Positions 1-64,000 of a DNA stretch of 64,000 nt are shown here, piece by piece. A program made the position numbers and the translations under genes. How positions within the stretch are numbered: position 1 is the stretch's first letter; each line of letters starts with the position of its first letter. The stretch spans positions 62,001-126,000 of the forward strand of contig NZ_JACRVF010000001.1 in the NCBI RefSeq assembly GCF_014306105.1, written 5' to 3'. The notes under the pieces were generated by a model. The model was not told the DNA's origin and did no database searches. It saw only the letters and a program-made list of their open reading frames with translations. This DNA is from Pontibacter cellulosilyticus (lineage in GTDB: Bacteria; Bacteroidota; Bacteroidia; Cytophagales; Hymenobacteraceae).

Positions 1-2557
1 CCAGTCGTGTCTCTATTGGCTGTAACTTCGGCGCCGAGGTAACACCCGGAATATTAGCCACGCGTACAATCTCATCCCAGATATCATCCGGACTCTGTAT
101 GTGGTCGCGCCACTGACGGAAATACTCCCCGTCATCATCCGGAATCAGGTTACCAGCTTCATCGCGCATAAATTCGCCATCGTCGTTTACCGCGAATCGA
201 ACTTTATAGCCCTGCTCATCGGTAATGTACTCTGACTTGTACTGGATGATGTTCTCGTACATCGACATCGGAGCAGGATCTAACGCTGTTTCGGCACGAC
301 CCGCCTTGCCCACCACTACTTCTACCTCAGGTATGGCTGTGATAAGCATATCCAGCTGCTGCACGATGCGCTTGTTGGCCTCGACGCCGGAGTGCGGCAT
401 TGACGTTGGCATGAGTAGGAAAGCACCTTCGTCCAGTGATGGCATGAACTCCTCACCCATACCTGGAAAAGTATGTACCAATCCGCTCCAAACCGATGTG
501 GTACGGATGTTAGCTCCTACTTTATCAAAACCACTGGCTACCCAACCGAACATGGAATTAAAGCCTACCCAGCTCAATAAACCAATTACCATGATCATGG
601 CAGGTATGGCCAGGAACTTACCTTTATTGGCAAGACACCAGTTGAGGATGCGCGGATAAGCTCCGATGAAGAGAGCAAATGCTCCCAATACCAGACCGAT
701 GATAAGTAGGATGAACAGGAAGTTCACGATCAGGCTCACCGAAGCACCCAGTGGCATCCAGTTCTCCGCCAGCAGCCATGATACAGCTACTACCGCAATG
801 CCTACCATCACAGGTGTGTTATACTTACCATAGCGTCCCGGCTGGTAAAACGTCAGCAGGTTGTTAGAAGCAATAAGGAGGAGCGTTATACCCGCCAGTG
901 GAAGTATAAAGATGGCGATGGCACCCAAGCCCAGCAGCACCCAGTTCAATATCTTAGACCAGGAAACGTTCTTCGACTTAAGGCCAAGTATGGTATGGGC
1001 GAAGGCCGGCATGATCAGGATGGTGAACACCAGCGAAGCCACCAACGCAAAGGTCTTGGTAAAGGCCAGCGGACCAAACAGCTTGCCCTCTGCTGCCTCC
1101 AGTGTAAACACCGGCAGGAAGCTAACGATGGTGGTGGAAACCGCCGTAATAATGGCCGTGGCTACTTCCGTGGTACCTTCATAAACCGACTTCAGCAGCG
1201 ACTGCCCCGGCGGCGCCTCATCAATATGCCGCAGCACGTTCTCGTTGAGTATGATTCCCAAATCCACCATAGTACCTATCGCAATGGCTATACCTGACAG
1301 AGCCACGATGTTGGCGTCCACGTTGAAGTACTTCATCATGATGAAGGTCATGAGCACGGCCAGTGGCAGCAGGGCAGAGATGAGCAGCGAGGCGCGCAGG
1401 TTATACACCATCACGATGATCACGATAATGGTGATGAGAATCTGAAATATGATCGCTTCGTTAAGCGTACCCAGCGTTTCATTAATCAGCTTCGTACGGT
1501 CGTAAAAAGGCACAATGGTTACTTTGGAAGTGCGTCCGTCGGCCAGTTTCTTGGAAGGCAGACCGGCAGAGATCTCGTCCAGTTTCTCCTTCACGTTGTT
1601 AATCACTGCCAGCGGGTTATCGCCGTAACGGGCAATTACCACACCGCCTACGGCCTCGGCACCGCTTTTATCCAGAATACCAAGCATAGAGCGGTCGGCT
1701 GGACCGATGTTCACACGGGCTATGTCCTGAATGCGGATCGGCACGTTGTTATTTACCTTCACCACGGCCTGCTCGATGTCTTCTATGTCTTTTACATAGC
1801 CCAGGCCACGCACCAGGTATTCCACTTGGTTAATCTCCACGGTGTTAGCGCCCACGTCTTGGTTGCTGTTCTGCAGGGTGTTCATCACCTCCATCATGGA
1901 GATGTTGTTTGCCTTCATGGCCACAGGGTCCAGGTCTACCTGGTACTCTTTTATATAGCCACCCACAGAGGCTACCTCAGCAACGCCTTCGGCACCAGAC
2001 AGTGCGTAACGCACATAAAAGTCCTGAATAGAGCGTAGCTCGTGCAGGTCCCAGCCTCCAACTGGGTTGCCTTCTTCGTCGCGGCCTTCCAAAGTATACC
2101 AGTATACCTGCCCCAGCGCCGTAGCGTCCGGACCAAGCTTTGGCGTTACCTCGTCTGGCAGCAGGTCGGATGGCAGGGAGTTAAGTTTCTCCAGGATGCG
2201 GGAGCGGCTCCAGTAGTACTCTGTGTCTTCATCGAAGATGACATAGATGCTGGAAAAGCCGAACATGGAGGTCGAGCGGATGGTTTTCACACCCGGCATA
2301 CCCAAAAGTGATGTTGTAAGAGGATAAGTGATCTGATCCTCCACGTCCTGCGGAGAACGGCCCATCCACTCGGTAAAAATAATCTGCTGGTTCTCACCGA
2401 TGTCCGGAATGGCGTCTACCGGAACCGGGTCGCGGGGCAGGAAATCAACATTCCAATTAAAAGGAGCGGTTACGATACCCCAGCCAACGATGAGCAGCAG
2501 GAGCAGCGTAGTTACGAGTTTCTGCTCCAGGAAAAATTTTATAATGCTGTTTAACAT
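1..2557 (-). CDS. CusA/CzcA-family heavy-metal efflux RND transporter permease (partial, C-terminus outside window)
   Basis: This inner-membrane RND pump would export metal cations (Cu/Ag or Co/Zn/Cd type) by proton antiport with a periplasmic adaptor and outer-membrane channel. Read on the minus strand from ATG at 2557, the open frame runs unbroken to the window edge (852 codons). The N-terminus (MLNSIIKFFLEQKL) gives a first membrane helix, followed by the porter region with the conserved DPVPVDAIPDIGENQQ-type stretch. About residue 400 comes the helix GIAIAIGTIVDLGIILNENV, which matches the CusA segment holding the proton-relay Asp. A second membrane block follows, then a periplasmic part ending near QPIETR at the edge. 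Family proteins are 1040-1450 residues, so about a fifth or more is missing. The metal cannot be told from sequence. The HYC_CC_PP gene just upstream on the same strand is a common companion. Partner genes must lie to the left. Confidence 0.93.
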   Translation of the reverse strand, partial: MLNSIIKFFLEQKLVTTLLLLLIVGWGIVTAPFNWNVDFLPRDPVPVDAIPDIGENQQIIFTEWMGRSPQDVEDQITYPLTTSLLGMPGVKTIRSTSMFGFSSIYVIFDEDTEYYWSRSRILEKLNSLPSDLLPDEVTPKLGPDATALGQVYWYTLEGRDEEGNPVGGWDLHELRSIQDFYVRYALSGAEGVAEVASVGGYIKEYQVDLDPVAMKANNISMMEVMNTLQNSNQDVGANTVEINQVEYLVRGLGYVKDIEDIEQAVVKVNNNVPIRIQDIARVNIGPADRSMLGILDKSGAEAVGGVVIARYGDNPLAVINNVKEKLDEISAGLPSKKLADGRTSKVTIVPFYDRTKLINETLGTLNEAIIFQILITIIVIIVMVYNLRASLLISALLPLAVLMTFIMMKYFNVDANIVALSGIAIAIGTMVDLGIILNENVLRHIDEAPPGQSLLKSVYEGTTEVATAIITAVSTTIVSFLPVFTLEAAEGKLFGPLAFTKTFALVASLVFTILIMPAFAHTILGLKSKNVSWSKILNWVLLGLGAIAIFILPLAGITLLLIASNNLLTFYQPGRYGKYNTPVMVGIAVVAVSWLLAENWMPLGASVSLIVNFLFILLIIGLVLGAFALFIGAYPRILNWCLANKGKFLAIPAMIMVIGLLSWVGFNSMFGWVASGFDKVGANIRTTSVWSGLVHTFPGMGEEFMPSLDEGAFLLMPTSMPHSGVEANKRIVQQLDMLITAIPEVEVVVGKAGRAETALDPAPMSMYENIIQYKSEYITDEQGYKVRFAVNDDGEFMRDEAGNLIPDDDGEYFRQWRDHIQSPDDIWDEIVRVANIPGVTSAPKLQPIETRL

Positions 2558-2653
2558 GCTTTATTCGATTGAATATACGGAAGTACGGCTACCGGAGGGC
2601 AGCAACAAACTATACCAGCCCTAAAAGGGAGGCAGTAATCGAAAAAAGCAGGT

Positions 2654-3085: not shown

Positions 3086-3206
3086 GTTTTGTTTTTATAC
3101 TTGCTACAAAGGTATAAGGTGAGGCACAAGTATACTTACACAATTAACAAAAACTTTTACATATTTTCTCCTTCTGCACATAAATTGTGCCGCTTTAGCT
3201 GAAGTT

Positions 3207-4016: not shown

Positions 4017-4018
4017 AC

Positions 4019-15518: not shown

Positions 15519-15556
15519 AAAAAGGCCGCTCAAGTATAAACTGAGCGGCCTTTTTT
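15519..15556. terminator. Bidirectional rho-independent terminator between glgP-like and pepD genes
   Basis: A perfect stem of about 14 bp (AAAAAGGCCGCTCA / TGAGCGGCCTTTTT) surrounds a 9-nt loop that contains AGTATAAAC. T runs occur on both strands. It lies 13 bp from the plus-strand stop and 11 bp from the minus-strand stop and should serve both convergent genes. Confidence 0.9.
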
Positions 15557-36775: not shown

Positions 36776-36859
36776 GTAATTCTTGCTTATTTTGAAGGCT
36801 CCCTGCCATGTCAAGTCACAGGTTACGCTAATGCCGAAGACTTGCGCCATCGAAAGTAT

Positions 36860-36907
36860 AAAACAGAAAGGACCGCCAATAATATCAATGGCGGTCCTTT
36901 CTGTTTT
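36860..36907 (-). terminator. Rho-independent terminator of the zinc metalloprotease gene
   Basis: A long stem, about 19 bp (AAAACAGAAAGGACCGCCA / TGGCGGTCCTTTCTGTTTT), encloses a 10-nt loop. It lies 19 bp past the minus-strand stop at 36927. On the minus strand it is followed by TTTTATACTTT, which includes one copy of the AAGTATAA word. Confidence 0.88.
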
Positions 36908-43559: not shown

Positions 43560-43678
43560 GAAATTGGGCGTTATTTAAGTATGACAAACGTGTTCGCAGA
43601 GCTAATTTAAGTATACTTTTCCTGCCATTTTCTATATTTTTGTTGCATATTGAAGCCTGACAGAAGTATAAAACAACT

Positions 43679-48414: not shown

Positions 48415-49353
48415 TTACTGCATATTTGGGGCCAAATTATCTGAAGGCACTAACTGTTTTTTATCCTGGCTATAACACCAGCCTTGCTCCGGTGTCACAA
48501 AGGCTCCTCCCAACCACACAGGAGCAGGTGAAAAAACCCTTTTACCATCTAATACTTCTTCACCTAATGTCGTCAATTTATAGGGCTCTTCCGCTTGTAT
48601 TAACTCCGACTGCAGGCGGTTGAGAACTTGCTTTACCTGCAGGTCTCCAAAGCCATAACCAGGCTGCTGATGCCAGAACTTTTCGATTAGCTCCTGCTCT
48701 GTTGTAGCGCCTCCTTTTACAATTCTGAGGATTTCAGTTTCTGGTAACCCTAAGCCTGTTTTGCAGTCGGGGAAGCGCTGTATGTGTAGCTCCAGGGCTT
48801 TCTCCAGGTGAGGTTCAAGCAATCTGTTTTGCTGCAAGTATACTTGCAACTGTAACGGGTCGGGGCCGGCATAAAGCTTCCACAGTTGCTGCGCCTGTTG
48901 CAACTGAGCCTCGGACTGTACCTGGCGGTTTTCGAATACATGGTGCATTTCCTCCGGGCTTAGGTAACCTACTGCCTTACCATCTACTGGAGTACACACC
49001 GAGACAACAGCCGGCTTAATTTTGCTCAGTTTCTGAAGCAAATAAAGCAAGTTTACCTGGCACATCAGATCAGTATCAAACCAAAGTATAACTTCGAAAA
49101 AAACATTGGCTACATTCAGTTTTTCCAGAACATCCAGCACCTTCAATTTATACTCCGGTGCTGTTCCGTGGCAGTTTTCTATAATGTACTGCTGGCGCCT
49201 TTTCCAGAACTCCTGCTCCGGTAACATGCCTATTACCGGCCCCTCAGAAAGCACTTCTCTCCAGATAACCACCTGTCCCGGAAAATCAGCCGTTTCAAAT
49301 GCACCCAGGGAGGCGTCGCCGTTTAGGATGTGGAGCGAGGGGAGCTTTTTCAT
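48415..49353 (-). CDS. DUF1835 domain-containing protein
   Basis: This 312-residue cytoplasmic protein belongs to the DUF1835 group. The N-terminal domain (LHILNGDASLGAFETADF, GQVVIWREVLSEGPVIG) has the start pattern of that family, and the following FFEVILWFDTDLMCQVNLL is its conserved core. The C-terminal region contains a winged-helix-like segment (about 215-275). No enzyme activity is known. It is preceded on the same strand by an SMP-30 lipoprotein gene 105 bp away. Confidence 0.85.
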   Translation of the reverse strand: MKKLPSLHILNGDASLGAFETADFPGQVVIWREVLSEGPVIGMLPEQEFWKRRQQYIIENCHGTAPEYKLKVLDVLEKLNVANVFFEVILWFDTDLMCQVNLLYLLQKLSKIKPAVVSVCTPVDGKAVGYLSPEEMHHVFENRQVQSEAQLQQAQQLWKLYAGPDPLQLQVYLQQNRLLEPHLEKALELHIQRFPDCKTGLGLPETEILRIVKGGATTEQELIEKFWHQQPGYGFGDLQVKQVLNRLQSELIQAEEPYKLTTLGEEVLDGKRVFSPAPVWLGGAFVTPEQGWCYSQDKKQLVPSDNLAPNMQ

Positions 49354-49458: not shown

Positions 49459-50322
49459 CTAGCGGTTTAGTCTGTATGCCACCACACGATTATCTTTAAA
49501 AGTTGGCACAAACAAAAGGCCTAACCTGTCGGAATAACTGATATCGGCTGCGTTTATGCCTTTGTCGACTGTGTTAAGTATAAGCCAGTTCTTGCCTTCT
49601 TCGTTCACAAAGTATACTTCGCCGTTCCAGTTCGATACCAGGTAACCTCCGTCTACCTCTGCTATGCCGTCTGCTGATTTAATGCCTTTGGTCCAGTCGC
49701 TCCATTTCTGTGTCTCAGGGTCTAACAAACGAACCTCTCCGTTAAAGCCAACAATCATGCGGTTGCCATCTAGGTAAATTCCGTTGGGCCTATCACCGCC
49801 AGTATTTTTCATCCAGTTGCTCACGCGGCCATTGCGCAGCAGGTAAATGCGCTCTTCTGCCGAGTCTGTTACATACACGTTACCGTTTTCATCTACAGCC
49901 ACATCATTCAGGAACTTTGCATTTTCAGCTGTATAACGGCCTAGCACAGCTCCAGACTGTGTAGAAATGGCTACTATCTCATCAATATCCGCAACATACA
50001 ATACATTGTTGTGCAGTGCCATCCCTTTAGGATCATTTAATCCGGAAACCCAGTAGAGTTCGTCAATCTGCCCCTCCGGATTGAGCTTTGATATAAAGCC
50101 GTCACCGTCTTTTTTAGATGAATTGTTCTGGTTGATGTTGGTGACGTAGATGATGTTGCGGCTGGGATCGAATAGCGCTGACTCAGGGGTGCGCAGGGTG
50201 TTGTCGGTAGCCCAGGCTTCTTCTAGCTTTATAGGTACTCTTGAGGAGAACAGGCCGCCGCTGCAGTTGCTTAAAAGTAGCAGACATAAAAATGAGCATA
50301 CACTCGTAAGTATAAATCGCAT
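49459..50322 (-). CDS. SMP-30-like beta-propeller lipoprotein
   Basis: This 287-residue protein begins with a lipoprotein signal peptide (FLCLLLLSNCSGG, Cys at about 20). A beta-propeller with SMP-30/NHL-like blades follows: ESALFDPSRNIIYVTNINQN, DPKGMALHNNVLYVADIDE, VAVDENGNVYVTDSAEERIY, DRPNGIYLDGNRMIVGF and LLFVPTFKDNRVVAY. Lactonase-type metal residues are incompletely recognisable, so a sensing or binding role is as likely as hydrolysis. It lies 63 bp downstream of menE on the same strand, perhaps by read-through. Confidence 0.85.
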   Translation of the reverse strand: MRFILTSVCSFLCLLLLSNCSGGLFSSRVPIKLEEAWATDNTLRTPESALFDPSRNIIYVTNINQNNSSKKDGDGFISKLNPEGQIDELYWVSGLNDPKGMALHNNVLYVADIDEIVAISTQSGAVLGRYTAENAKFLNDVAVDENGNVYVTDSAEERIYLLRNGRVSNWMKNTGGDRPNGIYLDGNRMIVGFNGEVRLLDPETQKWSDWTKGIKSADGIAEVDGGYLVSNWNGEVYFVNEEGKNWLILNTVDKGINAADISYSDRLGLLFVPTFKDNRVVAYRLNR

Positions 50323-50385: not shown

Positions 50386-51498
50386 TTAGTCGGTGTAGAG
50401 GCCAAGCTTTTGAAGCGTGCGCTGCCGCGACAGTTTTCCGGTTGCTGTTTCGGAAAAGGCAGGGCTATAGTAAACTTCCTTGGGTACTTCAAATTTACGA
50501 AGCGTGCTGCGCAGCCTGTCCATTAGTATAGCCTCATCCTCTTGCTGTAGCTGCTCACCTTCCATAATCAACACGACTTTTTCACCTAAAAGCTCGTCTG
50601 GCTGTGGGGCAATGAAAAAGCGCGGCGAGTCAGTCATATCTACAAAAGCTTCGGCAATGGCCAGTTCTACTTTCTCTACCTGCACCTTTACGCCACCAGA
50701 GTTTATTACATTGTCTACCCGGCCAATCCATTTAAACCGATCTTTGGTGAGCAGTTCCACAATATCGTTGGTTACAAGCAATTCTCCGTTTGTAACATCC
50801 CCTTTAATGGTAAGGCACCCACGCTTGTCCAATCCTACTTTTATACCATCTAGTACCTGGTAATATGCTGCTGCCTCTGGTCCGTTAAGGCGGCGCAGGG
50901 CAATGTGCGAGGCAGTCTCAGTCATGCCATACGTATGGTAAACCGGCGATTGAACGCGCTGTAGTTCACGCTGAAGGGTAGGGCTAACAGGCGCTCCACC
51001 TACCAGAATGCCCTTCATGCTGTTGAGCTGTGGCAATGCTTCCGGCATTTCCTGCAGTATGGTTTGCAGCTGCATAGGTACAAATGAGGCAAAGGCAATG
51101 TTTTCGTCGCGGGTAACTAACGTTAACGGATTTCCTATTGGCTCTACGATCACCATTTTCAGCTCCGCCATAAAGCCACGTGCCAGCATCATCATACCGG
51201 CAATATATTCTGTGTTGAGGCAGATAAGAGTAAGATCGCCTTTTTGCAGGTTTAATAACTCAATGGTGCGGCGTGCGCTTGCCTCTAACTGGGTACGTGT
51301 AAGCACAATGGTTTTGGGAGTTCCGGTAGAGCCGGATGTTTGTATCGGGAATTCCTGGATGCCGTTTAGCCAGCTGCGGCAGAACTCCAGCGTTTTAGAT
51401 TCATAGCCGTTCAGGGGAATGCTGTTCCGGAAAGAATAGTTTGATATTTCGTCGTAGTAAAACTTTTTGCCGTTCAGCAGCAGGAAATCTTCAGTCAT
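50386..51498 (-). CDS. menE: o-Succinylbenzoate-CoA ligase-like AMP-binding protein
   Basis: This is a 370-residue member of the acyl-adenylate-forming enzymes. The phosphate-binding P-loop is QTSGSTGTPKTIVLTR (about residues 54-69). Further core motifs are YHTYGMTETASHIALRRL (A5) and the hinge region WIGRVDNVINSGGVKVQVEK (A8), and the C-terminal Lys is in ETATGKLSRQ (A10). The short length fits MenE of Bacteroidota, and the neighbouring menD and menF genes on the same strand support OSB-CoA ligation in menaquinone synthesis. A DoxX gene and a 219-bp gap separate it from menD. Confidence 0.9.
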   Translation of the reverse strand: MTEDFLLLNGKKFYYDEISNYSFRNSIPLNGYESKTLEFCRSWLNGIQEFPIQTSGSTGTPKTIVLTRTQLEASARRTIELLNLQKGDLTLICLNTEYIAGMMMLARGFMAELKMVIVEPIGNPLTLVTRDENIAFASFVPMQLQTILQEMPEALPQLNSMKGILVGGAPVSPTLQRELQRVQSPVYHTYGMTETASHIALRRLNGPEAAAYYQVLDGIKVGLDKRGCLTIKGDVTNGELLVTNDIVELLTKDRFKWIGRVDNVINSGGVKVQVEKVELAIAEAFVDMTDSPRFFIAPQPDELLGEKVVLIMEGEQLQQEDEAILMDRLRSTLRKFEVPKEVYYSPAFSETATGKLSRQRTLQKLGLYTD

Positions 51499-51717
51499 GG
51501 ATAAAGCAGCATGTATCGCTTTGCCAAGCGTTGGTAAAACTCTGGTTAACGTAGCATCTTACGTTCTGCTGCAAAAATGGGAGAGAAGAAGCTGTAAAAC
51601 AAACAAAGCAGGCCTTGAATTAGAATGTTATTGACAGAGAAGTGTAAAATCAAAGACACGTAGCTTTCCTGTAAGGCAGAATGCCTGTTAAAGTATATCC
51701 CCTTTGTGGCTATAGCG

Positions 51718-52173
51718 CTAGTACAGCCAGTCTTTCTTAGGCTTGCGTATCAGGCGGTCTACAGAGAACTTACCTGAACCGTAGATCAGGAACACGATCA
51801 AAAGGACCAAAACGATAATTGATGACCACAGCTCTGCATTTTCAGAGTAGAAGCCTCTTTCCGGGTTAATAAAAAATACTGCTCCCAGCAGAATTGGCAA
51901 CTGGAAAAGTATAGCAACGCGGGTTATCAACCCAATAGCTATAAATAATCCTCCTACCAGGTGTGCAAACCCAACATAATGTGCCAGGCCTATTGATACC
52001 CATGGAAACTGGCTTTTACGCATGATAGCATATAAGGCCTCTGAATCACCGAGAAACATAATACCCTTCACCATTAAAAAGATGCCAAGGCCCATTCTGA
52101 TAAAATCGATCCAGATCGGATGGTGTGTGTCTGCCCAACGTTCTACGCGGTGCATGTCGTGAGTTAGGTTCAT
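51718..52173 (-). CDS. DoxX family membrane protein
   Basis: This 151-residue protein has four hydrophobic helices, typical of DoxX. It contains DFIRMGLGIFLMVKGIMFL, YVGFAHLVGGLFIAIGLITR and the conserved ILFQLPILLGAVFF. The function of the family is not settled, and some members form membrane oxidoreductase complexes or link to quinone or thiol stress. Its position between menD and menE makes a link to quinone pools conceivable, but that is inference. It is likely transcribed alone or from read-through. Confidence 0.88.
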   Translation of the reverse strand: MNLTHDMHRVERWADTHHPIWIDFIRMGLGIFLMVKGIMFLGDSEALYAIMRKSQFPWVSIGLAHYVGFAHLVGGLFIAIGLITRVAILFQLPILLGAVFFINPERGFYSENAELWSSIIVLVLLIVFLIYGSGKFSVDRLIRKPKKDWLY

Positions 52174-52317
52174 GGCTGCAAATTGATTAGTGAAACATGT
52201 TGTCTTTTAATTAGTTAAACGATTTATAGTTTATTTTGGACGTGGTTTTGGAGAATAGTGTAGGGGGATGACAATCTTTCTCCGACCAAGTTAGGCTATA
52301 CTTTATTTTCTGAAGCA

Positions 52318-52536
52318 CCGGATCAAACCACCCCTAGCCCCTCCTTATCCAAGGCGGGGAATTATGCTGTTACTACTGCCAAAGTATAAGCTCTGTAGCA
52401 AGCTTAACCTCTTTTCCACCAAGATTTTTACAAGATGACAAAGAGGAATGTCCTTGACTACTGTGATGGTATCTAGAGAATTAGTAGGTGAAATTCCCCG
52501 CCTTGGCTAAGGAGGGGTTAGGGGTGGTTGGACCTG
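52318..52536. repeat. About 219-bp MITE-like element (copy 2, opposite orientation)
   Basis: The left arm (52319-52362, ACCACCCCTAGCCCC...) and the right arm (52491-52536) are inverted repeats of about 40 bp with a few differences. They share the CCCCTCCTTATCCAAGG core of the copy at 42706. The centre (GCTGTTACTACTGCC...) matches the reverse complement of the centre of copy 1, so the two are diverged copies in opposite orientation. It occupies most of the 445-bp gap between the DoxX gene and menD (52174-52618); the rest of that gap shows no gene. Confidence 0.9.
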
Positions 52537-52618
52537 ATATTGCAGGAAAGCAAGCCTGAAGACTCGCACCTAGTATGCTGCACCAAATGGATACTGGCGC
52601 TATAAACTAAGAATTAAG

Positions 52619-54319
52619 CTAAAACTCTATACTTCTGACTGCCCTTCTGTACTTCTCAAATACCTCCGCATTTTCTGGACTATTGGTAAACACCTCAAGT
52701 ATGCCGGCGCCAGCTTCTGCTGTAAAGAACTCTGGTAGGGCTTTTCCCAGTTCTCCCAGTGTGTTTACTGCCGTGTACTTCATGCCAAAATCGCGGGCAG
52801 TGTTTTCGGCGTTCAGCCTCTGTTTTGTTTCGAAGTAAGGCTCCAGTTCAGGTTGTTGTTTAGGGCCATCTATTAACCTGAAAATGCCTCCTGCATGGTT
52901 ATTTAAAATAATGATGCGCAGGTTTTGAGGCAGGTAATTGTGCCACAGGCCGTTGCGGTCATAAAAAAAGGCCATATCACCTGTAAGCAGCGTGTTGATC
53001 TTTGTGCTGGAGAGGGCACAGCCAACGGCGGTGCTGGTGCTGCCGTCTATGCCGCTGGTGCCACGGTTTGCAAACACTTCTACTTCCTGCTCAGGTTTTA
53101 ATCCGATGATGTTGGCGTAGCGAACAGCCATACTATTGGCTAAATGTAAATTGCTTTTGCTCGGCAACTGCTGCATCACCTTAGCCACCACACTTAACTC
53201 ACTGTAAACAGCATTGGAAGTATAAGTTTGCAGAAAATCAGCAGCCTTCTCGTTCATGCCCATCCAGGCTTTTGTAAAGGCGGCTTTGTTTTTTATACTT
53301 CCTGCCAGGCTATAAAAAAAGCTTGGAGCAGCGCATCTAACCACTTTCGTTAATGCCTGAAAGGTATCGGCTACCTGCCCGGCTGGCTGAATGTGCCAGT
53401 GCGCCTCAGGTTTATACTTGCGGAGGAACTGCTTTAAGCTTTTAGAGATAACGGACTTTCCGAAAGTAATTAGCAGGTCTGGCTGCAGTTGCTTCAGCTT
53501 TTCTGCATCGGGGCAGGCAAGAAATACATCCTGGTAACGCACAGTGGCCTGCATTTCGTGGATGTTGCTAATGGTATCGCCCACAATTACTGCTCCCGTA
53601 GACTGCGAGAAGGCATAAAGGCTTTGCAGCTGGTGCAGGTTATACTTTTCCTGGCCGGCCACTACCACCACACGGCTATACTTTAAAATCTCCTCCTGCA
53701 GTTTAAGCGATACATTCTGAGAAAGTATAAACTCCTGTGTTTCTTCCTCAATTACTTTAACCTCTGGGCCATAGGTTACTTCTTCGCCGGGAGCAGGGTA
53801 GAAGGGCTCGCGCAACGGTACGTTTATGTGCACTGGCCCAGCGGGGTAAGCTACTGTCTCGTTCAATGCCTCCGACACCATGCGTTCGCTGTACCAGACA
53901 GCATCATGTTGCGCCACATCCAGCGGGAAAGTATAACTATGTTTGATATGCTGCCCGAATACGTTCTGCTGTCGGATTGTTTGACCGTCTAGTTGATCAA
54001 TCCACTCGGTGGGCCTGTCGGCGGTAAGTACAAGCAAAGGTACCTGCTGAAAGTACGCCTCTGCCACTGCCGGAGCGTAGTTTAATGCTGCTGTGCCTGA
54101 GGTGCAAACCAATACCGCGGGCTTTCCTGTTGTGAGTGCCATGCCCAAGGCAATAAAGGCTGCCGCCCTTTCATCACTTACTGTGCGAACTTTAAAACCA
54201 CCATGGCGCGCAAAGGCAATCGTAAGCGGCGCACACCTTGAGCCCGGCGACAATACCACATTCTCAACACCTTTACGGGCACAAATCTCAGCAATGTTTA
54301 CAACAGGTTGAATAATCAT
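52619..54319 (-). CDS. menD: SEPHCHC synthase (MenD)
   Basis: This 566-residue thiamine diphosphate enzyme joins isochorismate and 2-oxoglutarate in menaquinone synthesis. The N-terminal pyrimidine-binding domain has VLSPGSRCAPLTIAF, the catalytic Glu in VSDERAAAFIALGMAL, and CTSGTAALNYAPAVAEAYFQ followed by LTADRPTEWID. The C-terminal domain has the cofactor motif GDMAFFYDRNGLW with NNHAGGIF. Its length is normal. It is on the minus strand downstream of menF, and a hotdog thioesterase lies further upstream, so these genes act in one pathway. menB, menC and menA are not in this window. Confidence 0.96.
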   Translation of the reverse strand: MIIQPVVNIAEICARKGVENVVLSPGSRCAPLTIAFARHGGFKVRTVSDERAAAFIALGMALTTGKPAVLVCTSGTAALNYAPAVAEAYFQQVPLLVLTADRPTEWIDQLDGQTIRQQNVFGQHIKHSYTFPLDVAQHDAVWYSERMVSEALNETVAYPAGPVHINVPLREPFYPAPGEEVTYGPEVKVIEEETQEFILSQNVSLKLQEEILKYSRVVVVAGQEKYNLHQLQSLYAFSQSTGAVIVGDTISNIHEMQATVRYQDVFLACPDAEKLKQLQPDLLITFGKSVISKSLKQFLRKYKPEAHWHIQPAGQVADTFQALTKVVRCAAPSFFYSLAGSIKNKAAFTKAWMGMNEKAADFLQTYTSNAVYSELSVVAKVMQQLPSKSNLHLANSMAVRYANIIGLKPEQEVEVFANRGTSGIDGSTSTAVGCALSSTKINTLLTGDMAFFYDRNGLWHNYLPQNLRIIILNNHAGGIFRLIDGPKQQPELEPYFETKQRLNAENTARDFGMKYTAVNTLGELGKALPEFFTAEAGAGILEVFTNSPENAEVFEKYRRAVRSIEF

Positions 54320-54327
54320 TTTTTCAA

Positions 54328-54514
54328 TGAGTGAATGTGTGGGTGAGCGAATTAGTGAATGTGTGAATTTAGGAAGGAATTGTTTGTTATACTAAAGCCT
54401 TTTTGTCATTTCGAACAGAGTGAGAAATCTCTATAGAATTTTATAAAGATCTCTTTCTGGCGATCGAGATGACAAAATAAGAAATTATAAACATTCACTC
54501 AATCACTCATTTAC
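54328..54514. repeat. Inverted, TGAATG/CATTCA-rich intergenic repeat around a REP-like palindrome
   Basis: The gap between menF and menD is a nested repeat. Outer sides read AATGAGTGAATGTGTG (left) and CACTCATTTACTCATTC (right) in loosely inverted fashion. The inside (54396-54478) is a palindrome: TTTTGTCATTTCGA (54400-54413) pairs with TCGAGATGACAAAA (54463-54476), and GAGAAATCTCTAT pairs with ATAAAGATCTCTTTC-type sequence. TCATTTCGA...GAAATCTC palindromes are dispersed widely in this phylum. Confidence 0.75.
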
Positions 54515-55693
54515 TCATTCAAAATTAACAAGTATACGTCGCATTGTCTGCATTTTATGCTGGGTTTCCTGCCACTCCTTTTCTGGGTTTGATTCTCCCG
54601 TAATACCGGCTCCGGCATAAAGTATAATCTCTTGGTCGCGCACCTGCATGCAGCGCAGGTTTACAAACACATGCGTTCCGACTGGGCTGTTTACCGGGCC
54701 CAGGTAGCCGCTGTAATAGCTGCGGTTGTAGCCTTCGTAGGCAAGTATAAATTGCAGGGCAGGCTCTTTGGGCAAGCCACAAACTGCAGAAGTCGGGTGT
54801 AGCAGCCTCAGCATGTCTGTGCCTAGCGTCGGGAAGTCAACTTCTTTCAGGTCTACTTTAAAATCGGTGCGCAGGTGCATCAGGTTGCCGGCAATCACGG
54901 TTCTAGGGCCAATCTCGGTGTACTCGCGCAGGCGCAGGCTTTTAAAGCAATTTAGGATGTAGCGCTCCACCATGCCTTGCTCTTCGATTTCCTTCTGGCG
55001 CCAGATCGCATCGCCTACTTTTTCTACGGCAGGCTGTGTTCCTGCAAGGGCCACGGTTTTAAAAATCCGGTCTTCGTTTACACTTACCAGCACCTCCGGT
55101 GAGGCACCCATCCAGGTACCCGCACCCGGCACCGACACCAGCGATACAAAGGCATTGGGATACGCCTGCAGCATGGCTTCAAAAGCAGCAACAGGGGAGA
55201 AGTTGGCAGGCAGTTTTTGGCTGTAGTTGCGCGAGAGCACTACTTTCTCCATCTCTTCGGCAGTAATGGCTGCTATTGCTTTTTCTACGGCACCCTTAAA
55301 GCCTACTTCTGTTTGATAAGAGGTTTGTGCAATTTCTGAACTATACCAGTTTACTTCAGAGGTATCCATACTTTGTAAAGCATCCATAAAGGCCTGAACA
55401 GCTTCTGCTGGTGCATCTGCGGCAGGGGCTATATGTCCGGTTGCGCCATCAAAGTATAAATCCGCCTTAATAAAAAGCTGTTGCTCCTGCTCAGTAGTAT
55501 GGAAAGGGCAAAACAGAAACCCGAAAGGACTTTGCTCCAGTTCGGGCTGACCTATACTATTGCTTTGCTGCAACGATACACAAGCCAACACCTGCTCTGT
55601 AAGCGGTAATCGCCAAACAGCCACCGCCCTGTTCTGTGCGATGGCTGCCCGAAATAGATTCTCTAAAGTATATTGTCGGGTTTCTTCACCCAT
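54515..55693 (-). CDS. menF: Isochorismate synthase (chorismate-binding family)
   Basis: This 392-residue chorismate-utilising enzyme would isomerise chorismate to isochorismate. The C-terminal catalytic domain carries EKVVLSRNYSQKLP, TVALAGTQPAVEK, WRQKEIEEQGMVERYI (key Glu), the HPTSAVCGLPKE motif, YEGYNRSYYSGYLGPVNS, and ILYAGAGITGESNPEKEW. The order and the menD gene downstream support the isochorismate synthase role rather than anthranilate or salicylate synthesis. The N-terminal 140 residues are less conserved, as usual in this family. It precedes menD by 195 bp of repeat sequence. Confidence 0.95.
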   Translation of the reverse strand: MGEETRQYTLENLFRAAIAQNRAVAVWRLPLTEQVLACVSLQQSNSIGQPELEQSPFGFLFCPFHTTEQEQQLFIKADLYFDGATGHIAPAADAPAEAVQAFMDALQSMDTSEVNWYSSEIAQTSYQTEVGFKGAVEKAIAAITAEEMEKVVLSRNYSQKLPANFSPVAAFEAMLQAYPNAFVSLVSVPGAGTWMGASPEVLVSVNEDRIFKTVALAGTQPAVEKVGDAIWRQKEIEEQGMVERYILNCFKSLRLREYTEIGPRTVIAGNLMHLRTDFKVDLKEVDFPTLGTDMLRLLHPTSAVCGLPKEPALQFILAYEGYNRSYYSGYLGPVNSPVGTHVFVNLRCMQVRDQEIILYAGAGITGESNPEKEWQETQHKMQTMRRILVNFE

Positions 55694-55740
55694 TTGTTAA
55701 GCTTTAATAGTATGATGCGGTACTTTATATCTTTATTCTA

Positions 55741-55837
55741 ATGCTCCCTTCAAAGGGGGAGTTCAGCACGAGTAGTTTTGATTTAGTAAATCACATTAGC
55801 AGAAAAAGTCCCCCTTTGAAGTGGGTAGGTGGATGAT
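55741..55837. repeat. Palindromic CCCCCTTCAAAGGGGGA element (full copy)
   Basis: The left arm (55741-55762, ATGCTCCCTTCAAAGGGGGA...) and the right arm (55806-55837) pair imperfectly. Both contain the CTTCAAAGGGGGA core, and the reversed right arm matches the half copy at 45441-45472 (ATCATCCnCCT...CTTCAAAGGGGGACT). It lies between menF and the hotdog thioesterase gene. Confidence 0.75.
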
Positions 55838-55865
55838 GCACTTTCTGCTGAGTTTTCAATAAAAA

Positions 55866-56285
55866 TTACTTCTTATCAATCACAGCCACCGTCATGCGGC
55901 TGATGCAAACCATATCGCCGGATTCTGTGGTAATCTTTGTTTCCCAAACCTGAGTGCTTTTGCCCATGTGCAGTGCCGTAGCCTTACCATAAACCCAGCC
56001 TTCGCGCACGCTGCGGATGTGGTTGGCGTTAATCTCTAAACCTACGCAGGCTTTCGTTGTTGCATCTACGTGTATGTTTGCACCTATACTTGCCAGTGTT
56101 TCGGCCAGGGCTACAGAAGCACCTCCGTGCAACAGGCCCATGGGCTGGTGCGTACGATGGTCTACAGGCATTTTGCCGCAGATGTAACCTTCCCCAAACT
56201 CGGTCAGCTCAATGCCCAGGTGCTCCACCATAGTGTTTTTTCGCCACTCATTCAGGGTATCTAACGTAATAGGAGTTTTGTGCAT
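55866..56285 (-). CDS. Hotdog-fold thioesterase (PaaI/MenI-like)
   Basis: This 139-residue protein is a hotdog-fold acyl-CoA thioesterase. Family blocks are MVEHLGIELTEFGEGYICGKM, the catalytic region HRTHQPMGLLHGGASVALAE (with Gln/His/Gly around residue 47-60 and an acidic residue in the long helix), ACVGLEINANHIRSV and the C-terminal strand GDMVCISRMTVAVIDK. Position directly upstream of menF and menD on the same strand suggests it could be the DHNA-CoA thioesterase of menaquinone synthesis, but PaaI-type activity on other CoA esters is also possible. Confidence 0.9.
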   Translation of the reverse strand: MHKTPITLDTLNEWRKNTMVEHLGIELTEFGEGYICGKMPVDHRTHQPMGLLHGGASVALAETLASIGANIHVDATTKACVGLEINANHIRSVREGWVYGKATALHMGKSTQVWETKITTESGDMVCISRMTVAVIDKK

Positions 56286-56328
56286 ACGCAGCGATTTTTA
56301 ATTTCGCACTTTGAAAAGAGTAATCAGG

Positions 56329-56359
56329 CAAAAGTAGAAGAATTTTGAGTATTAAGAAA
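56329..56359 (-). promoter_or_regulatory. Candidate promoter of the thioesterase-men gene run
   Basis: On the minus strand TTTC (56356-56359) and TACTTTTG (56329-56336) are separated by 19 bp. This agrees with TTTG-N19-TAnnTTTG at 3 of 4 and 6 of 6 conserved positions. It reads out of the first bases of the histidine phosphatase gene. The expected transcript start is about 35-40 bp before the thioesterase ATG. Confidence 0.45.
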
Positions 56360-57004
56360 GTATACATTATCCGCCACGGGCAAACAGACTTTAACCAGCA
56401 GGGCATTGTGCAGGGCAGCGGTGTTGATTCTAACCTGAACCATGTGGGGCAGCAGCAGGCGGCGATGTTCTTTCAGAAGTATAAAGACATACCTTTCGAT
56501 AAAGTTTATACTTCTACGCTTAAGCGAAGCATACAATCGGTGCAGGCCTTTATTGATTTGGGTATACCGCACGAGCAGCACGAGGGCATAAATGAGATAA
56601 ACTGGGGCCATCGCGAAGGCCAGCGCATTACACCCGAAGAGGATGCATACTACCACCACATTCTGCAGACCTGGTGTAACGGCGACACACATATATGCAT
56701 AGAGGGAGGGGAGAGCCCCGATCTGGTTACGGCAAGGCAGCGGCCCTTTATTGACCTTATCCTGAGCCGGCCTGAAGAGAAAACTATACTTATCTGCATG
56801 CACGGCCGTGCCATGCGTATTCTTTTAAGCAATTTACTGCACTATCCGTTGCGCTGCATGGATGAGTTTTTGCACCAAAACCTGTGCCTGTACCAGCTTG
56901 ATTTTACAGGTAGCATGTTTGTGGTAAAAAAGTACTGCGACATCAACCATCTCAAAGAAAATGCTCCGGAAATAGACAGCCTGCAGAAGCACCGAACAAA
57001 TTAG
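56345..57004 (+). CDS. Histidine phosphatase family protein, TTG start
   Basis: This 219-residue protein has the phosphoglycerate mutase-like fold. The catalytic RHG motif is VYIIRHGQTDFNQQG (His9 region), with the second His in ICMHGRAMRILLSNLL and the Glu in INEINWGHREGQ. No ATG precedes the catalytic motif in frame, so TTG at 56345 is the likely start (MSIKKVYIIRHG). Such proteins are small-molecule phosphatases or mutases with varied substrates. It is divergent from the thioesterase gene and sits 86 bp upstream of the PDH E2 gene, which has its own promoter. Confidence 0.93.
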   Translation: MSIKKVYIIRHGQTDFNQQGIVQGSGVDSNLNHVGQQQAAMFFQKYKDIPFDKVYTSTLKRSIQSVQAFIDLGIPHEQHEGINEINWGHREGQRITPEEDAYYHHILQTWCNGDTHICIEGGESPDLVTARQRPFIDLILSRPEEKTILICMHGRAMRILLSNLLHYPLRCMDEFLHQNLCLYQLDFTGSMFVVKKYCDINHLKENAPEIDSLQKHRTN

Positions 57005-57014
57005 CTACATATAG

Positions 57015-57045
57015 TTTGAATAAAATATTTTTCAGTCTAATTTTG
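57015..57045 (+). promoter_or_regulatory. Strong Bacteroidota-type promoter of the PDH E2 gene
   Basis: TTTG (57015-57018) and TAATTTTG (57038-57045) are separated by exactly 19 bp, matching the -33/-7 consensus TTTG-N19-TAnnTTTG at every position. The transcript would start near 57052, giving a leader of about 40 nt. Confidence 0.8.
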
Positions 57046-57090
57046 GGCGGATAAGATTTTACGTAATTAGGCGACAAAAACACACGATAT

Positions 57091-58803
57091 ATGGCTGAAG
57101 TAATTAAGATGCCTAAGATGAGCGACACGATGACAGAGGGGGTGATTGCATCTTGGCTGAAAAAAGAGGGTGATAAAGTAAGTGCAGGCGATATACTTGC
57201 CGAAGTGGAAACCGACAAGGCAACCATGGAACTTGAATCATACGAAGATGGCACACTTCTTTACATCGGCCCTAAAAAAGGTGATGCTGTGCCTATAGAC
57301 GCTGTGATTGCTATTATCGGTAAAGAAGGAGAGGATATCTCTGGCTTGCTTAACGAGGTGAAAGGTGGCGGTGCTCCTGCCCCTAAAGAGGAAAAGACGG
57401 AAGAGGCTAAGCCTGCCGCTAAAGAAGAGAAAAAAGAAGAAGTTAAGCCGGCTGCTGCCAAAGAAGAAGCTCCTGCTAAAACTACCGTAGATACCAGCAA
57501 TATCAAGGCTTCGGTTATCCGTATGCCAAAAATGAGCGATACCATGACAGAGGGTGTGCTTGTAAGCTGGATAAAGAAAGTAGGCGATAAAGTAAAATCA
57601 GGTGATGTGCTGGCTGAAGTAGAGACAGACAAAGCCACAATGGAGTTGGAGTCTTACGAAGACGGAACGCTGCTTTACACCGGTGTTGAAGAAGGCGAAT
57701 CTGTAGCGATTGATGCTATTATCGCTATTATCGGTGAAGAAGGCGCAGACTACAAAGCCCTTTTAGATGCAACTTCATCAAATAAGCAATCCAGACAAGA
57801 GAATGCCAAGACAGACGAGGCTATCGAAGCCGGTGTAGACGAAGTAACTTCTGATAAAGTAGAAACTGAGAATGTACCAGGTCCTGAGGCTGCCGAGCAA
57901 GGCGCCGCAGCAGAAGGCAACGGCCGTATAAAGGCTTCTCCGCTGGCTAAGAAAATGGCTAGTGAGAAAGGCATCAACCTGAGCCAGGTAAAAGGTACCG
58001 GCGAGGGTGGCCGAATCGTTCAGCGCGACATCGAGAACTTTAAACCATCTGCCGCTCCACAGCAGGCTGCTGCCCCTCAGGCTGCTCCGGCTGCTGCACC
58101 GGCCATACCAGGCGCTCCTGCCGACTCTTACGAAGAGGTAGCTGTATCGCAGATGCGTAAAGTAATTGCCCGCCGTTTGGCCGAAAGCAAATTCTCTGCG
58201 CCGCACTTCTACCTGACCATGGAAATTGACATGGACAAGGCCATGGAGGCGCGTGTAAGTATAAATGAAGTATCTCCGGTTAAAGTATCGTTTAACGACC
58301 TTGTTATCAAGGCTGCTGCTGCTGCATTGCGCCAGCACCCTGCGGTTAACTCATCATGGTTAGGTGATAAGATCCGTTACAACAAGCACATTAACATTGG
58401 TGTGGCTGTAGCGGTAGAAGAAGGCTTGCTGGTACCAGTTGTTCGCAACGCTGACTACAAGTCGCTATCGACTATTGCAGCTGAGGTGAAAGACCTGGGT
58501 GGCAAAGCCAAGAGCAAAAAACTACAGCCATCTGACTGGGAAGGCAACACGTTTACCATCTCTAACCTGGGCATGTTCGGCATCGAGGAATTTACCGCTA
58601 TCATTAACCCGCCGGATGCTTGTATCATGGCAGTAGGTGGCATTAAGCAGACGCCTGTAGTGAAGAATGGCAACATCCAGATCGGCAACGTGATGAAGGT
58701 AACGCTTAGCTGCGACCACCGCGTGGTTGACGGCGCCGTGGGTTCTGCCTTCCTGCAAACGTTTAAGAACCTGTTGGAGAACCCGGTGAGAATACTGGTG
58801 TAA
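57091..58803 (+). CDS. Pyruvate dehydrogenase complex dihydrolipoamide acetyltransferase (E2), two lipoyl domains
   Basis: This 570-residue E2 core enzyme transfers acetyl groups from lipoyl-lysine to CoA. The two N-terminal lipoyl domains carry the modified Lys in EVETDKATMELES (Lys43 and Lys181). They are joined by Ala/Lys/Glu-rich linkers (about 92-132) and followed by the peripheral subunit-binding domain KASPLAKKMASEKGINL (about 281-315), an Ala/Pro linker, and the catalytic domain. The catalytic His is in CDHRVVDGAVGSAF (His543, Asp547). The repeated lipoyl domain reads almost as a duplicated exon-like block. It has its own consensus promoter and a terminator, so it is transcribed alone; E1 and E3 genes lie elsewhere. 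Confidence 0.95.
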   Translation: MAEVIKMPKMSDTMTEGVIASWLKKEGDKVSAGDILAEVETDKATMELESYEDGTLLYIGPKKGDAVPIDAVIAIIGKEGEDISGLLNEVKGGGAPAPKEEKTEEAKPAAKEEKKEEVKPAAAKEEAPAKTTVDTSNIKASVIRMPKMSDTMTEGVLVSWIKKVGDKVKSGDVLAEVETDKATMELESYEDGTLLYTGVEEGESVAIDAIIAIIGEEGADYKALLDATSSNKQSRQENAKTDEAIEAGVDEVTSDKVETENVPGPEAAEQGAAAEGNGRIKASPLAKKMASEKGINLSQVKGTGEGGRIVQRDIENFKPSAAPQQAAAPQAAPAAAPAIPGAPADSYEEVAVSQMRKVIARRLAESKFSAPHFYLTMEIDMDKAMEARVSINEVSPVKVSFNDLVIKAAAAALRQHPAVNSSWLGDKIRYNKHINIGVAVAVEEGLLVPVVRNADYKSLSTIAAEVKDLGGKAKSKKLQPSDWEGNTFTISNLGMFGIEEFTAIINPPDACIMAVGGIKQTPVVKNGNIQIGNVMKVTLSCDHRVVDGAVGSAFLQTFKNLLENPVRILV

Positions 58804-58826
58804 CCACAGCAAAGTATAAAGTATAG

Positions 58827-61132: not shown

Positions 61133-61133
61133 A

Positions 61134-61949: not shown

Positions 61950-62169
61950 AGTTGTGGGTAGCAGTTGCATGTTTAAAATCTACCAGACCTTAAAAAAAGC
62001 CAGGTAGCATTATTTAAATATAGCCCTACAGTATTTGGCTAATCCGTAATGGTTGGAGGCAGATAATCCGAAGGTGCTGCCACAACTAGTTTTACGGAGG
62101 TAAGTCTTTAAAGTGCTAATCGGTAAACAGGAACAGCCTGCTTTTGTTCAGTAACTAAAGGTGGCTTAC

Positions 62170-62751: not shown

Positions 62752-62926
62752 AGTATGAAAGGTTTATTGTGTAGATACTATATACGGAGAAAAGGTTGCA
62801 TGTGCTGAAGAATTAATATTATTACTATGTGATACTCGAGGTTTATATTACCTCTGGTGTTTTAAGGCTTTGGGCGGTTTAATAATGGTGTTTATAGTAT
62901 AACGCAGGCTGACTATCTAATAGGTG

Positions 62927-62956
62927 ATTGCTAAATGCTGATATTGAGTACATTTG
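62927..62956 (+). promoter_or_regulatory. Candidate promoter of the WD40-like gene
   Basis: ATTG (62927-62930) and TACATTTG (62949-62956) are separated by 18 bp. The -7 matches the consensus fully, and the -33 matches at 3 of 4 positions. The transcript would begin about 15 bp before the ATG at 62978. Confidence 0.5.
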
Positions 62957-62977
62957 CCCACGTCTAAATCTACAACT

Positions 62978-63916
62978 ATGAAAAAATTATTACTTGGCAC
63001 AGCTGTATGTTGTGTCTTTGGTTTCAGCGCATCTGCACAGCAAAAAAATGCAGCATCAATAGAACTTGTGGGAGAAAAGCTGATCTCTACCCCTGAAAAC
63101 GAGTTTAACCCCGTCTTATCCCGTAACGGCAAAACCATGTACTTTGTAAGAGCACACGAGGGCTTCGAAGACATGAAAATTATGGTTAGCCACCTTAGCA
63201 AAGGACAGTGGTCGGAGCCAGTTGCTGTTTCTTTTTCCGATGACCTTTTCAATGATTCTGATCCGTCACTAAGCCCAGACGGAAAGACGATGTTTTTCAT
63301 AACTAACCGCACAACCGACGGGCAGGTGGGCAAAAAGGATCTGGACATTTGGCAGTCGCAGTTGGTAAATGGTATCTGGGCAACACCTACTCCTGTCTTA
63401 GGAGATAAGGTAAACAGTAAAGGCGATGAACTTGGTCCTGAGCTTCGTGCTGATGAATATTTATACTTTAATTCAGGCCGGAAAAGCGGTGTGGGCAGTT
63501 CAGACATATTCAGAGCAAAGTACCAGGATGGCAGTGCAAGCCAAATGGAGCTGGCGCCGGAGGAGGTAAACACAACGGCATTTGAAGGAGACATTACTTT
63601 CTCTACAGATGGAAAGTACATGGCTTGGGCTGCATGGGAAAGAGATGGTGTGTTGGGAGAGGGCGACATCTATATCTGCTATAAATTGAAAGATAATACT
63701 TGGTCAAAACCTGTTAACCTCGGAGCCTCCCTTAATAGCTCCGCTTTCGATTTTACACCTCATTTTTCTGCTGATGGGCGCTACCTATACTTTGCCAGCT
63801 TTAGAAAAGATGCTCCAGTTAATGCTTCCGCTGAAGTACAGAACGGACAGTCAAATATTTACAGAATAAGCATGAAAGAAGTAAACCGTTTGCTAAAAAA
63901 GAAGACGCTGCTGTAG
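62978..63916 (+). CDS. Secreted PD40/WD40-like beta-propeller protein
   Basis: This 312-residue protein has a signal peptide (KKLLLGTAVCCVFGFSASAQ). Repeats of the WD40-like PD40 type follow, recognised by NPVLSRNGKTMYFVRAHE, DPSLSPDGKTMFFITNRT, ELGPELRADEYLYFNSGRK, ITFSTDGKYMAWAAWERDG and TPHFSADGRYLYFASFRKD. In Bacteroidota such modules occur in OmpA-family and TolB-like envelope proteins. No C-terminal OmpA domain is present, so it is a free propeller. The frame is open from 62954, but ATG at 62978 starts the signal sequence. No gene follows before the window edge. Confidence 0.88.
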   Translation: MKKLLLGTAVCCVFGFSASAQQKNAASIELVGEKLISTPENEFNPVLSRNGKTMYFVRAHEGFEDMKIMVSHLSKGQWSEPVAVSFSDDLFNDSDPSLSPDGKTMFFITNRTTDGQVGKKDLDIWQSQLVNGIWATPTPVLGDKVNSKGDELGPELRADEYLYFNSGRKSGVGSSDIFRAKYQDGSASQMELAPEEVNTTAFEGDITFSTDGKYMAWAAWERDGVLGEGDIYICYKLKDNTWSKPVNLGASLNSSAFDFTPHFSADGRYLYFASFRKDAPVNASAEVQNGQSNIYRISMKEVNRLLKKKTLL

Positions 63917-64000
63917 TCACTATTTAATCAACTTCTACCGTAATGTCGCGTTAGCTTTCCTCTTTGTACAGATGCAGACAATTTGGCGTAAAGTATGGCT

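Follow-up and report, generated by a model that had tools for sequence, protein, structure and literature searches.

A 64,000-nucleotide stretch of Pontibacter cellulosilyticus DNA (contig NZ_JACRVF010000001.1, positions 62,001 to 126,000; the whole of it is called the window here) raises the question of what keeps a short word, the octamer AAGTATAA, dispersed over a bacterial chromosome. An earlier note on this sequence had estimated about eighty copies where about three were expected, in both orientations and in coding as well as non-coding DNA, and this is borne out: the window holds 83 copies, 41 as AAGTATAA (+) and 42 as TTATACTT (-), against 3.7 expected under an order-2 Markov model, and they lie both in genes and in the gaps between them. 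AAGTATAA is the top word among the window 8-mers listed (z = 41.5), and its core heptamer AAGTATA occurs 141 times against 12.6 expected under the same model. A large excess is kept in the whole genome (G000; 4.61 Mb in 13 contigs, the window being C1:62001-126000), with 2370 and 2588 copies of AAGTATAA on the two strands (4,958) compared with 79 and 79 (158) for the reversed word used as control; the palindromic double word AAGTATACTT is found at 218 sites and its reversed control at 2. The excess of the word in Pontibacter is confirmed as real and strong. Expectations were derived from order-2 Markov models or from synonymous shuffles, open reading frames (ORFs) come from a simple rule that takes the longest candidate, and whole-genome counts covered AAGTATAA, AACTATAG and AGGTATAG, with AAGTATACTT counted in G000 alone.

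It is virtually certain that Pontibacter chromosomes carry, in great excess, an asymmetric 8-base word of the form A-NN-TAT-R-V which is spelled in AG, AC, GG and TA dialects, changes by substitution, is conserved between species, is denser between genes and is rare on three second replicons. The unit in G000 is an asymmetric 8-mer, AAGTAT(A>G)(A>G,C>>T), and not a palindrome, because of the bases that follow the core and of the enrichment of its one-base neighbours. The 589 AAGTATA sites in 264 kb of this genome are followed by A in 331 cases (56%), G in 121, C in 106 and T in 31 (5%), and, the adjoining bases aside, no position within 40 bases exceeds 0.05 bits. AAGTATG (203 vs 53, 3.8-fold) is the sole strongly enriched member of the 21 one-base neighbours, with AACTATA (1.9-fold) in second place; a few further neighbours are mildly enriched in the pools of other species. 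Strong depletion of any of the 21 was not found in these 264 kb, where the lowest, CAGTATA, stands at 0.62 of expectation (0.81 in a pool of eight word-free species). The species that use AACTATA are low in AACTAGA (4 vs 13.1 expected), a heptamer that holds CTAG, a tetramer rare in many bacteria.

Codon or dinucleotide usage, named by the earlier note as an explanation that would refute its idea, is rejected as the cause, because AAGTATA exceeds synonymous shuffles in all six reading frames (2.9- to 15.6-fold), with 419 copies in 217 kb of coding sequence of G000 against 66 in the shuffles, and the Markov excess points the same way. The AACTATA species use five frames; the sixth would create a stop codon. 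Word density is higher in gaps than in genes (3.43 vs 1.93 per kb in G000, 11.3 vs 2.3 in AACTATA species), 419 of the 589 sites sampled in G000 lying in coding sequence, and it peaks in the 25 bases past stop codons in all four sets of genomes compared. Convergent gaps are denser than divergent gaps in three of the four sets, G000 being the exception. Strand counts, assessed within stretches and not relative to a mapped origin, are balanced (chi-square 11.5 on 11, 22.1 on 18, 9.0 on 8 and 9.6 on 15 stretches, or 0.6 to 1.2 per stretch in the four sets). Even spacing was looked for and not found: the distances between words are near random, with a coefficient of variation of 1.10 and a slight excess of close pairs.

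The suggestion of a genus-wide signal word holds insofar as dispersed words occur in 42 of 50 Pontibacter species, but not as to a single spelling: the word is instead a set of lineage dialects of one template, none of them evident in eight species. The comparison used the orthologous region around the E2 gene of the window (57091-58803) taken from all 50 genomes; most species were sampled by one 12-20 kb stretch around this gene, so that densities per kb are local, and loci below 12 kb, among 80 named loci, were dropped from the dialect counts. The template A-NN-TAT-R-V (V = not T) fits 42 species, two of them weakly (G007, G037). By the bases NN they are divided into AG (19 species), AG+AC (3), AC (5, counting G047, which keeps some AG), GG (13, weak in G037), TA (1) and weak AG (1, G007), and the spellings are AAGTATAA, AACTATAG, AGGTATAG and ATATATAA. 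In these 12-20 kb samples the first-ranked word is AACTATA, or ACTATAG as a part of it, in G018, G031, G038, G045, G047 and G027; AGGTATA ranks first in 12 species (including G037) and second in G016, and G044, G033 and G027 are rich in both AAGTATA and AACTATA. The fourth spelling, ATATATRV, belongs to G043 (141 vs 35.6), where the form with final T is not enriched (7 vs 13.8). Density reaches 4.0-4.8 words per kb in AC species, palindromes being counted twice.

Whole-genome counts give the same picture. AAGTATAA is very frequent in 23 species, intermediate in 5 and low in 22, and a different spelling is used by most species of the last two groups; AACTATAG reaches 3,115-4,160 copies per strand in five species, 998-1,310 in G033 and G027 and about 450 in G044, and AGGTATAG has 1,397-2,713 copies on each strand in 12 species, with about 375 in G037. 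Samples of 12-60 kb from the remaining eight species (G002, G024, G025, G026, G028, G034, G042, G046) showed no outstanding spelling; their genome-wide counts are 1.3 to 3.7 times the reversed control for AAGTATAA and 1.2 to 3.3 times for AGGTATAG, possibly a faint residue of the word. As a separate observation, copies of AGGTATAG follow one another at intervals of about 66 bases along one strand of G020:C1:1944098-1946633, a tandem or CRISPR-like array.

The dialects follow the species tree, since 7 parsimony changes suffice for their labels, where 2,000 random reshufflings of the labels needed 29 on average and never fewer than 23 (G043 and G007 being treated as without a word). The tree was built from seven syntenic proteins and rooted on Rufibacter and Adhaeribacter; some of the seven genes are missing in G008, G019, G031, G038 and G042, and some deep nodes are weak. 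The AC and AG+AC species form one clade and 12 GG species form another, sister to G006, a species of the AG dialect (called AAG below), whereas the species without evident word comprise a basal trio (G026, G028, G042) and several other positions on the tree. Along the AC clade the genome-wide count of AAGTATAA falls from 6,128 (G044) to 4,476 (G033), 3,911 (G027), 2,125 (G047, whose placement within the clade has a support of 0.31) and 788-921 (G018, G031, G038, G045), and that of AACTATAG, in the same order, is 907, 2,002, 2,617, 6,288 and 6,292-8,208. Local densities agree, with one small reversal (AAGTATA at 2.13 and then 2.33 per kb).

Words are shown to be gained and lost mainly by point substitution. 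In 11 close pairs of species, from which sites with gaps or short flanks were dropped, 224 word sites differ, 136 of them by one base, and 24 further sites were set aside with gaps; the AAG coding set, like the other coding sets restricted to pairs of 72-90% identity, has 24 gaps among 1,723 differences. The sites are also kept: the close pairs share 0.72 of them compared with 0.45 for control words, and the flanks of words diverge more than those of controls (1.24 vs 0.95 of the pair mean). Conservation of word and control in the coding sets is 0.485 vs 0.224 (AAG), 0.667 vs 0.28 (GG) and 0.588 vs 0.333 (AC), the controls being permutations of the word not matched for codon context and the same site being counted in several species pairs, so that n is not independent. 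For AAGTATA in GG species, none of 44 comparisons shows conservation. The dialects switch in place by substitution. At sites of AC species that differ by one base from G044, AAGTATA stands in 15 of 32, and at sites of G006 compared with GG species AGGTATA stands in 15 of 25; comparison between AAG species gives AACTATA in 0 of 17 and AGGTATA in 2, and G044 sites compared with G033 and G027 give AACTATA in 0 of 3. From the counts of the word and its neighbours, and on the assumption of mutation-selection balance, the advantage per site is estimated at about 2.0 to 2.7 in log fixation odds.

Depletion on plasmids or mobile DNA, which the earlier note had proposed to look for, is seen in three carriers of AAGTATAA (G001, G020, G021). 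Their second replicons (116, 204 and 74 kb), presumably plasmids, contain 30 AAGTATA in 120 kb (0.25 per kb; 2, 3, 4, 9, 11 and 1 in six 20-kb stretches), compared with 24, 17 and 47 per ~20 kb (0.86-2.39 per kb) on the chromosomes; the former density is similar to that of species without the word (0.15-0.46 per kb). The second replicons L143 (G020:C2) and L144 (G021:C2) have in common a composition rich in ATTAATA/AATTAAT.

Outside the genus, AAGTATAA does not exceed 2.4 times the reversed control in 98 genomes of the family and order. A few species of other genera of the family show strong words of their own (35 stretches and named loci of at least 15 kb; anything shorter was dropped, which removed 5 of the 40 family genomes and some named loci). 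Hymenobacter setariae (L048) and two genomes of genus g4 (L191, L200) together have 91 CCTAGG against 14 in 62 kb; 79 of the 91 read ACCTAGG, followed by G in 43, C in 21, A in 13 and T in 2, and the full palindrome ACCTAGGT occurs twice in these three. The H. setariae word, with ACCTAGGG as main form, may belong to a wider template, A-NN-TA-K-R-V, a post hoc fit on few samples. Three further words were noticed: GCTAGCC in Hymenobacter sp. BT559 (L061) and two genomes of genus g5 (L213, L227; 102 vs 30 in 62 kb), AATATT, mostly within AAATATT, in two genomes of genus g3 (L203, L207; 111 vs 36 in 40 kb), and CTACCCC in Hymenobacter sp. HSC-4F20 (L075; 28 vs 3.7 expected). The GCTAGC, AATATT and CTACCCC words fall outside the wider template.

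The reading favoured here, tentatively, is that the word is recognized by a sequence-specific reader of drifting specificity, probably in the uptake of self DNA. A DNA-binding protein would read the word, and each copy would carry a small and roughly uniform advantage, of the size estimated above, by direct selection or by transmission bias. A shift of dialect would come about as the preference of the reader at bases 2 and 3 drifts, by way of an intermediate state in which either spelling is accepted. The reader may belong to natural transformation, at DNA uptake or at the point where self is recognized, and would favour the uptake or recombination of own fragments that bear the word. In that case the word would serve as a DNA uptake sequence (DUS) does, with no type IV pili involved, as proposed for the unusual uptake machinery of Riemerella anatipestifer. 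The comparison with DUS made in the earlier note is the best fit to the pattern, but the 50 genomes yielded no full-length ATPase of the type IV pilus that reads the known DUS, and a role in uptake is an inference.

Several points weigh against this reading, beginning with the candidate genes. ComEC (PF03772) is present in 50 of 50 genomes, whether or not the genome carries the word, and is widespread in bacteria (PMC6668835); it was dropped as an uninformative correlate. The ATPase of type IV pili and type II secretion (PF00437) has no full-length match in the 50 genomes: with up to 31 first-look candidates scored per genome, the matches listed span at most about 66 of 370 positions, and three genomes are marginally over the cut-off. 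There is therefore no known machine here for a minor-pilin (ComP-like) receptor of the Neisseria type, and a type IV pilus reader was discarded. DUF5689 (PF18942) occurs in 22 of the 50 genomes, with 12 short forms that are all in carriers; it was dropped as a receptor, since G000 lacks it and SusD-like proteins make up three of the four neighbours scanned upstream of short forms. No reader protein was identified among the families searched. As to the words themselves, AGGTATA in AAG species is conserved above control (0.397 vs 0.196), which the model does not predict and which perhaps marks a weak secondary site; equally unpredicted, the second replicon of G002 (L146, G002:C2:1-20000), a species without evident word, contains 14 AGGTATA against 2.8 in 20 kb, perhaps as DNA from a GG-dialect species; and clustering is not called for in a signal of which each fragment requires a single copy, whereas the near-random spacing shows a slight excess of close pairs. 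A bias of words to gene ends was looked for inside genes and not found, unlike the uptake signals of Pasteurellaceae, described as biased to gene termini (PMC2346458). The densities of AC species, with 11 words per kb in gaps, also lie above that of the densest DUS genome described in PMC3630211 (5,918 in 2.4 Mb, about 2.5 per kb). A literature search on Pontibacter and transformation returned one incidental match and nothing else. As a side observation, the ComEC frame is interrupted by one stop in two carriers (G009:C76:160505-161305, TAG; G022:C1:2771217-2771876, TAA), where decay or assembly error is possible.

The main rival, which we judge unlikely, takes the word for the site of an abundant chromosome-organising protein, associated with the nucleoid or with repair, in which case each copy would be weakly selected and the dialects would track the protein without any transfer of DNA. 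Copies that are neither evenly spaced nor saturating, that use both strands and, in G000, all six frames, and that do not avoid close pairs and palindromes would suit such a protein, as would the finding of no uptake machinery beyond ComEC in the search for PF00437. Chromosome-organising proteins usually tolerate degenerate sites, however, whereas G000 is strict, with AAGTATG alone strongly enriched and AACTATA a distant second; eight of the 50 species show no word in their samples, and few words lie on the second replicons of three carriers.

An origin like that of the cyanobacterial HIP1 (highly iterated palindrome 1), in which DNA methylation and a bias of methylation-directed mismatch repair make or keep the word, is improbable. 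The density, the use of coding sequence and the alternate words do resemble HIP1 as described in PMC4390886, and the palindromic forms AAGTATACTT and AACTATAGTT are enriched; alternate HIPs, however, come with a matching methyltransferase (PMC4390886). The search for methyltransferases covered PF01555, PF02086, PF00145 and PF02384. The first three occur in 31, 13 and 23 of the 50 genomes and are all missing from the carriers G000, G014, G022, G023 and G036. PF02384 is strong in the last four of these and in most genomes, but in G000 it gives two partial matches (23.0 and 20.6 bits at a cut-off of 20.4, over 97 and 119 of 311 positions). A methyltransferase link of the kind known for HIP1, to which the earlier note had compared the word, is therefore not supported for G000, which lacks three families and has the fourth in part, and whose unit is asymmetric and not a palindrome; in addition, conversion bias predicts a depleted neighbour, and none is strongly depleted in the 264 kb. 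A methyltransferase of a less usual kind, for example of PF07669, may be present in the carriers.

No less improbable is a mutational or repair bias, for instance by a mismatch nickase, that writes the word without function. The words do lie in all classes of sequence and are gained by point substitution, and AACTAGA is low in AC species, though it holds CTAG. Such a bias should nevertheless drain its precursor, and no neighbour in G000 falls below 0.62, a value reached by CAGTATA, which is also low in the word-free pool; directed mutation from a single precursor word is accordingly not supported. Moreover, the TAT core is constant while the two variable bases shift step by step between lineages, and orthologous sites are conserved. 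Spread of a mobile or repeat element, such as repetitive extragenic palindromes (REP) or bacterial interspersed mosaic elements (BIME), or a recombination or segregation motif of the Chi or KOPS (FtsK orienting polar sequences) type, is hardly credible in spite of the high copy number and of a word in a terminator-like hairpin: differences are mostly substitutions (224 differing sites vs 24 with gaps in the close pairs, and few gaps in the AAG coding set), flanks share nothing past the adjoining bases and most G000 sites are in coding sequence, on which grounds insertion is rejected, as is an oriented motif on the balanced strand counts.

The features of the window are collected in Table 1. 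The palindromes that the earlier note had placed at 3131, 43608 and 48838 lie within three bases of those figures and are joined by a fourth; its words at 15532, in a terminator loop, and at 36854 are present, that of 58811 begins one base later, and the words ending in the stop codons of hutI (GTA-TAG) and hutG (GTA-TAA) were both found. The putative hutI product matches an amidohydrolase family. Two AT-rich genes contain one and no word as had been stated, at 23383-24555 (GC 0.32) and 58924-60429 (GC 0.40), but their recent arrival is unsupported: genes so short are expected to hold only about 1.5 and 2 words at the density of the window, and the counts alone are no evidence for it.

Table 1. 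The word and reference loci in the window (positions from its first base).
Feature	Position	Strand	Basis or remark
Dispersed AAGTATAA	1..64000	41 +, 42 -	83 copies, ~1.3 per kb, coding and intergenic
Palindromic double word AAGTATACTT	3128..3137		sequence
AAGTATAA in loop of terminator-like hairpin	15532..15539	+	stem GGCCGCTC ... GAGCGGCC, then T run
AAGTATAA at site put beside a putative terminator by the earlier note	36854..36861	+	sequence
Palindromic double word AAGTATACTT	43609..43618		sequence
AAGTATAG, final 3 bases = stop codon of putative hutI (ORF 45635-46882)	46875..46882	+	sequence
AAGTATAA, final 3 bases = stop codon of putative hutG (ORF 46917-47891)	47884..47891	+	sequence
Palindromic double word AAGTATACTT	48836..48845		sequence
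Fourth palindromic double word AAGTATACTT, absent from earlier examples	49610..49619		sequence
Seven-gene block for species tree and site-by-site dialect comparison	50386..58803		orthologues
E2-type 2-oxoacid dehydrogenase acyltransferase gene, not part of the signal	57091..58803	+	anchor for orthologous regions
AAGTATAA directly past stop codon of E2 gene, within AAGTATAAAGTATAG	58812..58819	+	sequence

The word is apparently undescribed so far, as the earlier note had supposed. AAGTATAA, AAGTATACTT, AACTATAG, AGGTATAG and ACCTAGGG were not found in the full-text literature, a corpus that excludes most subscription papers and all preprints, in which TATACTT turned up in two unrelated papers; no description of uptake words or over-represented words in Pontibacter, Hymenobacter or Bacteroidetes is among the matches listed. 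To our knowledge, few bacterial groups have such dense signal words, the function of HIP1 is still open, and no earlier uptake signal is known in Bacteroidota, so that the Pontibacter word would, if it is one, be the first. Pontibacter has four dialects with graded intermediates, some 40 species that carry the word and eight, in several lineages, without an evident one; it thus lends itself directly to comparative work on which protein reads the word and on how a signal of thousands of copies changes its spelling. An uptake signal would suggest a receptor for DNA that does not depend on type IV pili, and would open a practical route to transform Pontibacter with DNA bearing the right word. A broader proposal, conceivable and open to considerable doubt, is that a self-DNA recognition system without type IV pili or methylation extends across the family of Pontibacter and Hymenobacter and uses asymmetric A-NN-TA-K-R-V words. 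Its dialects (AAGTATAA, AACTATAG, AGGTATAG and ATATATAA in Pontibacter; ACCTAGGG in H. setariae and two relatives) would be recombination barriers between species, and the series AAG, AAG+AAC, AAC would be a change of specificity in progress whose reader could be found by co-variation.

Among known systems, the DUS and the uptake signal sequences (USS) of other bacteria lie on both strands without polarity, and so does the Pontibacter word, which resembles them also in copies far above expectation and in its scarcity on presumed acquired replicons. Inverted-repeat pairs that form terminators are frequent among DUS. The USS of Pasteurellaceae are dispersed asymmetric words with a strong core, as is the word described here; they have conserved downstream AT-rich segments, which the flanks of the word in G000 lack. 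HIP1 is similarly very frequent, used in coding sequence and replaced by other words in some cyanobacterial lineages, but it and its alternates are palindromes (PMC4390886), whereas the Pontibacter unit is asymmetric and no methyltransferase of PF01555, PF02086 or PF00145 is common to its carriers. Riemerella (Flavobacteriaceae) is a competent member of the same phylum, and R. columbina favours its own DNA (PMC8459023, PMC7965970). Transformation of R. anatipestifer involves ComEC, DprA, ComF and RecA together with several proteins for which no homologue is known in uptake machines (PMC8459023, PMC7965970). The relevant parts of these papers list just A- and T-rich k-mers and establish no uptake word, which sets Riemerella apart, as does DUF5689, reported among its uptake genes (PMC8459023) and not found in G000; homologues of the type IV pilus kind have been suggested in Flavobacterium johnsoniae (PMC7965970). 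The DUS of Neisseriaceae comprise eight dialects that follow phylogeny, and the one genome of Simonsiella muelleri carries two of them in nearly equal numbers (PMC3630211). The Pontibacter word has 8 bases where DUS is a 10-mer and belongs to Bacteroidota; since the type IV pilus machinery, a defining part of DUS, was not encountered, it is not filed as a DUS and would not be a classical one. It is nevertheless DUS that it appears to resemble most in its evolution, with thousands of copies, dialects one or a few bases apart round a constant core, consistency with phylogeny and genomes that hold two dialects at once.

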